Source of the DNA: Methylobacter tundripaludum SV96
GTDB taxonomy: Bacteria > Pseudomonadota > Gammaproteobacteria > Methylococcales > Methylomonadaceae
DNA length: 64,000 nt
Direction of reading: 5' to 3'
Assembly: GCF_000190755.2 (NCBI RefSeq)
Contig: NZ_JH109152.1
Span: 1-64,000 of the forward strand
The notes beneath the pieces are model-generated. The model saw nothing but the letters and a program-made list of their open reading frames with translations, searched no databases and was not told where the DNA came from. The first letter of the stretch is position 1, and each line of letters opens with the position of its first letter. This document shows positions 31,229-33,757 of the stretch, piece after piece. The translations under genes were made by a program, and so were the position numbers.

Positions 31229-32773
31229 TCAAACATCCCCTTTCTGAGGATGCCGACGTTGATCGGGACTATGCAGCTTATTCACGGCATTGATATAGGC
31301 CTTGGCCGAAGCAATAACAATATCGGTGTCAGCGCCTAAGCCATTAACGATCCGGCCTGCTTTTTCAAGGCGGATAGTGACTTCACCCTGGGCATCGGTG
31401 CCGTTGGTGATGCTGTTAACCGAATAAAGCTCCAGAGTGGCATCGGTTTGTACCAGTTTTTCAATGGCTTTTAAACTGGCATCCACGGCACCGCCGCCGC
31501 TTGCAGTGCCGGTAACTTCTTTATTGTCCACCCGTAGCGTAACGGTTGCGTTGGGTATTTCGCCGGTTTCCGAACACACTTTCAGGGCGATCAGTTTGAT
31601 ATGCTCGTCTTCCGCTTCAAACCCGGCTTCCGAAATCAGTGTTTGCAAATCTTCATCAAAGATTTCGTGCTTTTTATCGGCCAACTGCTTAAACCGGGCA
31701 AAAGCCTCGTTCAACTCTGATTCCGAACCGAACTCAAAGCCCAATTCGGTGATACGGCTTTTAAACGCATTTCGGCCTGAGTGTTTGCCCAGCACCATAC
31801 GGTTAGCCGTCCAGCCGACATCTTCAGCGCGCATGATTTCGTAAGTCTCTCTGTTTTTTAATACACCATCCTGATGAATCCCCGCTTCATGTGCAAAAGC
31901 ATTGGCACCGACGATGGCTTTATTAGGCTGCACGGGAAAACCGGTGATTGACGATACCAACTTTGAACAAGTCAAAATTTCGCGGGTATCGATGCCGGTT
32001 TGACAGGTAAATACATCCTTACGGGTGCGCACCGCCATGACCACTTCTTCCAGCGACGCGTTACCGGCGCGTTCACCCAAGCCATTAATGGTACATTCGA
32101 CTTGACGTGCGCCGTTCATAACCGCCGACAACGAATTGGCAACCGCAAGTCCCAAGTCATTGTGGCAATGCACGGAAAAAATCGCCTTGTCCGAATTGGG
32201 AATGCGGCGGATTAGGTTGGCAATGGTTGCGCCGAATTGATCGGGAACGCTGTAACCCACGGTATCCGGTATGTTCAGCGTCGTGGCTCCGGCATCGATA
32301 ACCGCTTCAAGAATCCGGCACAAAAAGTCTTCTTCCGAGCGTCCCGCATCTTCCGGCGAAAATTCGACATTATCGGTATATTGCCGTGCGCGTTTGACCG
32401 CCCTAACCGCATACTCGATCACCTGCTCCGGCTGCATCTGCAATTTCATTTGCATATGGATCGGCGAGGTGGCGATAAATGTGTGAATCCGCGATTGGTT
32501 AGCGCCTTTAAGCGCCTCGCCTGCACGGTCAATGTCCTTGTCCAGGGCTCTTGCCAACCCGCAAACTACACTGTCTTTTATCACCTTGGCGACCGCCTGC
32601 ACGGCTTCAAAATCACCGGGACTGGCCGCAGGAAAGCCGGCCTCGATCACATCGACCTTTAAGCGTTCCAAGGCCTTGGCGATTCTGACTTTTTCTTCAC
32701 GGGTCATGGATGCGCCGGGGCTTTGCTCGCCATCGCGCAAGGTCGTATCGAATATTATTAACTTGTCTTTCAT
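31229..32773 (-). CDS. leuA: 2-isopropylmalate synthase LeuA
   Basis: First step of leucine synthesis: acetyl-CoA plus 2-ketoisovalerate. 514 residues: catalytic HMGL-like barrel ([24 protein letters not shown]; metal ligands His in [17 protein letters not shown] near 203), a linker, and the C-terminal leucine-binding regulatory domain ([19 protein letters not shown] near 425). The start at 32773 has GGAG eight bases upstream; the ATG at 32788 is less likely. Apparent promoter, leader peptide and hairpin lie upstream, so it is probably controlled by attenuation and by feedback. Confidence 0.95.
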
Positions 32774-32847
32774 AAAAACTCCATTCATGGAGAGCTATCA
32801 ACTGTTACGTTGATACATGGAAATAGGGGGTATAAATAATTAAATGG

Positions 32848-32873
32848 AAAAAAGATGTATGCCCATCAGGGCA
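32848..32873 (-). terminator. Putative attenuator hairpin upstream of leuA
   Basis: On the minus strand TGCCC (32873-32869) pairs with GGGCA (32864-32860) across ATCA/TGAT, six bases before a run of T ending near 32848. A competing pair, TATGCC upstream with GGCATA, would exclude it. The stem is short, so the terminator is uncertain. Confidence 0.4.
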
Positions 32874-32973
32874 GGAATCTTAAAGGCAGGCATAGCCACG
32901 CGCACACGTCTGTTTCGGCAAACATTGCGCCGGAAAGAAGGTTTTGAAATGCAGGGTTGATTTGAATAAACAT
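32866..32973 (-). CDS. Candidate leucine leader peptide for leuA
   Basis: A 35-residue ORF that starts MFIQINPAFQNLLSG and ends AWLCLPLRFLP, with Leu codons CTA, CTG, TTA and CTG among its last ten sense codons, immediately before the possible attenuator hairpin. The ATG is only about seven bases from a TATAGT box, so it would be translated from a leaderless or nearly leaderless transcript; no ribosome site precedes it. Stalling at Leu codons when leucine is short would alter the downstream fold. Context and codon placement support the idea; nothing else proves it is expressed. Confidence 0.5.
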   Translation of the reverse strand: MFIQINPAFQNLLSGAMFAETDVCAWLCLPLRFLP

Positions 32974-32980
32974 GGTCGTG

Positions 32981-33009
32981 ACTATACGCCAATGGCTGTG
33001 CGGCCTCAA
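32981..33009 (-). promoter_or_regulatory. Sigma-70-type promoter of leuA leader
   Basis: On the minus strand TTGAGG (33004-33009) and TATAGT (32981-32986) are separated by 17 bases. It begins just after the pssA stop codon, so leuA can be transcribed independently of pssA. Confidence 0.6.
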
Positions 33010-33016
33010 GCAGATT

Positions 33017-33757
33017 TTACGCTTTACGCCCCTGCAACCTGCGTCTGCGCATGACCAGAGTAATAACCGGGCCTGAAATTGCATAACCTAAAAACAACAG
33101 GAACAACATCGTCTGCGGCTGCGCCATCACAAAAGCGATAGCCAGCATCGCGGCAATCGCAACAATAAAAGGCACTTTGCCTTTTAAATCGATTTTTTTG
33201 AAACTCCAATAGCGGAAATTACTCACCATCAGCAAGCCGGTGCTGACTGTTAACGCGAGTGCAAAATATTTGAACAGCTCGATGTCGTATTTATACTCCA
33301 GGCAAATCCAGATAAATCCGGCAAGAATCGCGGCGGCGGCAGGACTGGGAAGTCCCTGGAAATAATTCTTATCGGCCGTCGCCAGCTGGGTGTTAAAGCG
33401 CGCGAGTCTTAATGCGCCGCCCGCCGCATGGACAAATGCGGCAAACAGGCCTAATTTACCGAGGCTCGAAAACGCCCATAAATACATGACCAAAGCGGGG
33501 GCCGCGCCGAATGAAACCATGTCCGAAAGGCTGTCGTATTGAGCGCCGAATTCGCTTTGCGTATTGGTCAATCTCGCCACCCGGCCATCCAGACCGTCCA
33601 GAATCATCGCTACAAAAATGGCTACAACAGCGGTTTCGTAACGTCCGCCCATCGCCGAAGTAATCGCATAGAAACCGGAAAACAGGGCTCCCGTGGTAAA
33701 TAAATTAGGTAATAAATAAATTCCACGACGACGAGTTAAGCGTTTTTCTGGAAGCAT
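33017..33757 (-). CDS. pssA: CDP-diacylglycerol-serine O-phosphatidyltransferase PssA
   Basis: Makes phosphatidylserine for phosphatidylethanolamine. The 246-residue membrane protein has the CDP-alcohol phosphotransferase signature DGLDGRVARLTNTQSEFGAQYDSL (D-G-x2-A-R-x8-G-x3-D-x3-D) near residue 53 and about seven hydrophobic helices. Begins MLPEKRLTRRRGIYLLPNLFT, typical of the bacterial integral-membrane type. pssA upstream of leuA is a common order in proteobacteria. Confidence 0.93.
   Translation of the reverse strand: MLPEKRLTRRRGIYLLPNLFTTGALFSGFYAITSAMGGRYETAVVAIFVAMILDGLDGRVARLTNTQSEFGAQYDSLSDMVSFGAAPALVMYLWAFSSLGKLGLFAAFVHAAGGALRLARFNTQLATADKNYFQGLPSPAAAAILAGFIWICLEYKYDIELFKYFALALTVSTGLLMVSNFRYWSFKKIDLKGKVPFIVAIAAMLAIAFVMAQPQTMLFLLFLGYAISGPVITLVMRRRRLQGRKA

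Follow-up and report, generated by a model that had tools for sequence, protein, structure and literature searches.

The leuA gene of Methylobacter tundripaludum SV96 is probably controlled by a leucine-responsive attenuator that is built on a leaderless leader peptide. The leader is a short, Leu-rich ORF between pssA and leuA, and its function is likely that of a leucine leader. We also lean, by a little more than even chances, towards a broader reading, according to which leaderless leaders without a Shine–Dalgarno sequence (SD), acting on leuA through pairing of their Leu codons with its SD and accompanied by a stop-codon hairpin and a pseudoknot, make up a widespread, uncatalogued family of leucine sensors in Gammaproteobacteria, either homologous to the actinobacterial LEU element or parallel to it. 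In the relatives of Methylobacter, this arrangement would have been converted into one with a local SD hairpin and, possibly, a Rho site.

Organization of the leuA leader region

All of the features described here lie on the minus strand of the window, the 64,000-nt stretch of DNA that was analysed. In the direction of transcription, pssA (33017–33757; NCBIfam TIGR00473) comes first, followed by the promoter and leader ORF, and then by leuA, encoding 2-isopropylmalate synthase (31229–32773; NCBIfam NF002087/TIGR00973; start placed from homologues). This is the order given by the first-pass annotation, and the NCBIfam matches support both gene identities. An in-frame ATG at 32788, which would add MNGVF within hairpin P3 (below), was rejected as the leuA start; homologues favour 32773. 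The promoter sequence that had been proposed is present: a –35 element, TTGAGG (33009–33004), which is kept across the genus as CTTGAGG, is followed after 17 nt by the –10 element TATAGT (32986–32981). The A of the leader ATG (32973–32971) lies 7 nt past TATAGT, again as claimed, and no SD precedes it. With a score of 9 out of 12 the promoter is a modest match, and by itself the scan for promoters gives no significant result (2 found, 3.9 expected), so the case rests on comparison.

The leader ORF (32973–32866) comprises 35 codons and is predicted to be leaderless. It encodes MFIQINPAFQNLLSGAMFAETDVCAWLCLPLRFLP, ending in LCLPLRFLP, with TGA at 32868–32866 as its stop. Its Leu codons occupy positions 12, 13, 27, 29, 31 and 34, and so the four that had been noted near the stop fall within the last nine codons, where they are interspersed rather than contiguous. 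Met17, considered as an alternative start, is not conserved (L004 and L008). The ORF end overlaps hairpin P1 (TGCCC-TGAT-GGGCA; 32873–32860), whose motif, CTGCCCTGANGGGCA, occurs once in the genome. P1 can be extended by AAGAU:AUCUU (32881–32877 with 32856–32852), and a T-run follows it (32853–32848). The hairpin and T-run that the annotation had placed after the ORF thus both exist; the hairpin, however, overlaps the end of the ORF instead of lying 3′ of it, because the stop codon sits in the P1 loop. Beyond P1 comes a pyrimidine-rich, rut-like stretch of 45 nt without G (32861–32817), the longest such run on either strand of the window. Hairpin P2 (UAUCAAC-GUAACA-GUUGAUA; 32815–32796) and hairpin P3 (CUCCA-UGAA-UGGAG; 32792–32779) complete the region, and P3 encloses the leuA SD, GGAG (32782–32779). 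Inspection by eye showed that the 3′ arm of P1 does not pair with the anti-SD CUCC in a conserved manner. A scan of the window against Rfam 15 returned no family and one sub-threshold chance match (E 2.4), and ten relatives gave no match at the gathering score.

Conservation within the genus

The annotation had proposed conservation of the ORF and its Leu codons among relatives as a check on itself, and the check bears it out. The leader is present at 19 (L001–L019) of the 22 leuA loci of the genus, window included, and the ORF is also kept in the wider family. TATAGT and ATG are 7 nt apart at all 19 loci, and in 15 of the 16 genus leaders that were scored for the distance; the seven intervening bases vary. 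Genus leaders are 35, 33, 31 or 28 codons long, so changes in length keep the frame, and at all 19 loci the peptide ends Leu-Pro-stop. Codon 27 alternates between CTA and TTA with no change of residue. The codon substitution test on these leaders is not significant: pN/pS is 0.68 against 0.83 ± 0.16 for column shuffles, and 37 of 200 shuffles are as low.

The RNA structures next to leuA are also maintained. P3, which holds the SD, folds at –5.1 kcal/mol with 98.9% of cells paired across 18 sequences, and P2 has changed on both sides at four of its seven pairs. The G-free run measures 39–47 nt at 11 of the 13 genus loci that were scored and have no repeat insertion; outside the genus its length is not kept (medians 20 and 15). 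Long-range pairing in the genus amounts to AAGAUUCC:GGAGUUUU, at –7.6 kcal/mol, and several members have it in a weaker form. Covariation between Leu run and SD is uninformative as a test within the genus because the SD is nearly constant. Modelled accessibility of the SD does not respond to ribosome position in the genus, and the hairpin CCYGRCGRGG/CCTGGCGAGG with its pseudoknot, described below, occurs in no genus member.

At L020, L021 and L022 (genomes G015, G017 and G004) the promoter and leader are absent. The hairpins adjoining the leuA SD can still be recognised at these loci, and leuA is probably transcribed there from pssA. Some loci of the genus and its neighbours (L004, L005, L006, L010, L014, L016, L032, L033 and L035) carry a repeat-like insertion, TGCATGGATGCAGGAGGTAGAGCAATGCAGGAGCAATTGCCGAG or a variant of it, between P2 and the leuA SD, where it splits the SD hairpin region; the insertion resembles a dispersed repeat.

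A wider family of leuA leaders

Regions upstream of leuA were surveyed at 80 named loci and in a class-wide sample of 185 genomes, the leader being taken as the best short ATG ORF with at least four Leu among its last 12 codons. Of 235 regions, 164 hold such a Leu-rich ORF on the sense strand, and 10 do so on the antisense strand when it is searched in the same way. For the class sample alone the figures are 87 of 118, and 6 antisense. Typical leaders end LLRLLP, LRLP, LLLPR or LPLRG directly before the stop, and among the named carriers are Methylophaga, Sedimenticola, Candidatus Thiosymbion, Acidiferrobacterales and Muproteobacteria. In 138 of the 164 leaders the stop is enclosed by a hairpin of 4 bp or more, against 27% at random positions in the same regions.

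In 148 leaders outside the genus, the in-frame ATG most often follows a –10-like hexamer at 6, 7 or 8 nt (24, 23 and 17 leaders), with 0–5 leaders in each flanking bin; control ATGs stand at these distances in 1, 1 and 3 cases of 352. Across the family, 79 of 164 leaders have a –10 box 6–8 nt before the ATG. None of these 79 has an SD-like sequence before that ATG, while in the same regions an SD is present for 140 of 164 leuA genes. Sigma-70 transcripts usually start 6–8 nt after the –10 box, and with the spacing found here the RNA would begin at the leader AUG or 1–2 nt before it. The –10 spacing and the missing SD, taken together, strongly suggest that these leaders are leaderless.

Outside the genus, the run of Leu codons is complementary to the SD of its own leuA in a locus-specific manner. 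For 137 non-redundant leaders, we compared the duplex energies of true Leu-run/SD partners with those of permuted ones. True pairs are better: z is –6.1 when the window ends 12 nt short of the last base of the stop codon, and it fades to about 0 for windows downstream of the stop. At least six contiguous Watson–Crick pairs form in 56 of the 137, against an expectation of 26 and no more than 41 in any of 2000 permutations, and a control window has no excess of such matches. Leaders of Chromatiales and Methylophaga have the strongest pairing. When a ribosome is made to cover codons 4 to 8 ahead of the stop in partition-function models, the SD opens at 58–67 of 140 loci and closes at 4–8. About 60 members outside the genus share the hairpin CCYGRCGRGG. 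Its next outer pair covaries, being paired in 54 of 58 cases against 26.6 expected, a count never reached in 2000 shuffles, although permutation values of this kind are not strict probabilities because the sequences compared are related. The loop of this hairpin pairs with a downstream ACGY: GGCG is matched by CGC in 45 cases and by CGU in 7, and GACG by CGU in 4 of 4 (Fisher p = 0.0009). Antisense controls and control windows were used to offset the kinship of the sequences. The choice of leader favours Leu-rich ORFs, a selection from which the permutation of true against exchanged partners gains nothing. Comparison of sequences shows the ORF, its –10 spacing, P1, P2 and P3, as well as Leu-run:SD pairing and the pseudoknot at the level of the family, and it points to translational attenuation as the family's mechanism.

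Two further elements were seen at other sites. The genome of L241 (G122:C96, 4428–4446) has one copy before leuA and, at this locus, a second set of leader end, stop hairpin and CCTGGCGAGG element, which no LeuA frame follows directly. At L242 (G103:C1, 2285385–2285404, minus strand) an Ile-rich ORF ending in FAIKIISSIIIVPLAR and stop stands before a CCTGGCGAGG...ACGCA element. The latter genome has no listed LeuA match, and the element may be an isoleucine counterpart that precedes a different gene.

How the leader might act

From this anatomy we infer a response to leucine, stalling of the ribosome and, in the window's genus, a terminal step. RNA polymerase would start at the leader AUG or within 2 nt of it, as the –10 spacing suggests, and ribosomes would therefore load on the 5′ AUG without an SD. 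When leucine is plentiful, the ribosome would translate past the Leu codons near the C-terminus, terminate at the UGA inside P1 and leave; the RNA would then fold in a way that keeps leuA expression low, for most of the family by pairing of the vacated Leu-codon run with the leuA SD. When charged tRNA-Leu is scarce, the ribosome would stall on the Leu codons and block this pairing, and the SD would be freed (translational attenuation). In the Methylobacter-like genus of the window the long-range stem is weak, and the SD lies in a local hairpin, P3; there, the stalled ribosome would probably shield the G-free stretch from Rho, or hinder occlusion of the SD by the leader.

A Rho-dependent attenuator, similar to that of tnaC, is possible, if doubtful. 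Departure of the ribosome at the leader stop would expose the G-free, C/U-rich RNA to Rho, which would end transcription before leuA, and a ribosome stalled on the terminal Leu codons would shield it. The position of the rut-like run directly after the stop hairpin, its length, the greatest in the window, and its retention in most of the genus speak for this; no intrinsic terminator is convincing, and P3 would keep leuA untranslated. The length of the run is not kept outside the genus, however, the repeat insertion breaks it in some members, and elsewhere the family displays Leu-run:SD pairing. Classical transcription attenuation, with P1 and its T-run (32873–32848) or P3 and the U5 that follows it (32792–32774) as intrinsic terminator, is improbable. 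A terminator scan does pick both, and the extended P1 folds at –11.3 kcal/mol (z –3.0), but terminator-like hits are only mildly above those in shuffled sequences (7 against 3.5, sd 1.8). The T-run after P1 is broken in L008, L012 and L017 and is absent outside the genus, and L002, L003, L011 and L018 have a break in the U-run after P3. Moreover, the stop codon lies within P1, so a ribosome that completes the leader would disrupt the hairpin, which can fold only with ribosomes out of the way; for induction by starvation this is the wrong sign. No antiterminator was found. The annotation's possible attenuator, if read as a terminator made of this hairpin and T-run, is therefore not supported.

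A plain leuA promoter beside a coincidental ORF would account for the modest promoter score, of a kind expected by chance, and for the weak codon signal within the genus. It is very improbable in view of the Leu-rich sense ORFs, the fixed spacing between –10 box and ATG, and the stop-codon hairpins found across the family. The leucine-responsive attenuator with a leaderless leader peptide remains the reading that we prefer. Within the genus itself, four results speak against it: the modelled SD accessibility that is indifferent to ribosome position, the weakened AAGAUUCC:GGAGUUUU pairing, the weak codon substitution test and the three genomes that have no leader.

Relation to known systems

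The closest parallel is the LEU element that precedes leuA in Actinobacteria, which consists of a leader ORF with a Leu run, pairing between that run and the SD, and a pseudoknot between the two, with no obvious terminator (Seliverstov et al. 2005, PMC1262725); its authors favoured a regulatory protein over translation of the leader. Outside Methylococcales, the family described here has the same parts and likewise no obvious terminator. It differs in that it belongs to another phylum and its leaders are longer, end LLP, LRLP or LPLRG and have a dedicated hairpin for the stop codon. The genus of the window departs further, having a local SD hairpin instead of the CCTGGCGAGG hairpin and pseudoknot. 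LeuL1, the leuA leader of Streptomyces lividans, has been described as leaderless on the basis of RNA-seq and has no typical terminator (PMC8079986); it too has a Leu run, but is actinobacterial and only 15 aa long (MRFGLLLLSCRGEGL).

Other leaderless leaders are likewise partial matches. In mycobacteria, leaderless poly-cysteine uORFs are described as controlling the downstream gene by translation attenuation (Canestrari et al. 2020, through PMC9031893 and PMC13236596); they share the leaderless start and regulatory codons, but sense cysteine and are unrelated in sequence. The trpL leader peptide of Sinorhizobium meliloti belongs to a Trp attenuator and releases attenuator RNA (PMC10117765); it is a leaderless amino-acid leader in Proteobacteria, as here, but for Trp and in Alphaproteobacteria. 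The ilvB leader peptide of C. diphtheriae is leaderless as well (PMC5784534). For the gammaproteobacterium Shewanella, a Leu leader before leuA has been proposed with terminator and antiterminator hairpins (PMC2659441, after Vitreschak 2004), neither of which was identified here. In terms of class, the conserved intrinsic terminator and competing antiterminator of leuL-type attenuators were not found before leuA; the G-poor, rut-like RNA beside the leader stop that is typical of tnaC is present at the level of the genus only; and pathway-product codons near the leader end, as in leaderless attenuators, are present.

The annotation had called a leaderless leader peptide in attenuation unusual. 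For Gammaproteobacteria this stands: a search of the open-access literature yielded no report of one. It does not stand for bacteria at large, and such a leader is not unprecedented, because examples are known in S. lividans, mycobacteria and S. meliloti.

Significance

By its described anatomy, the family would extend the LEU element beyond Actinobacteria, and it supplies covariation for the pseudoknot. Its many natural variants are available for testing whether translation of a leader controls access to the SD. To our knowledge, little is known of leucine control outside the enterics, and leaderless initiation in Gammaproteobacteria is usually regarded as rare. The leuA leader offers a concrete and conserved case in which leaderless initiation seems to be built into a regulatory circuit, where it may allow translation of the leader to begin as early as possible after promoter clearance.
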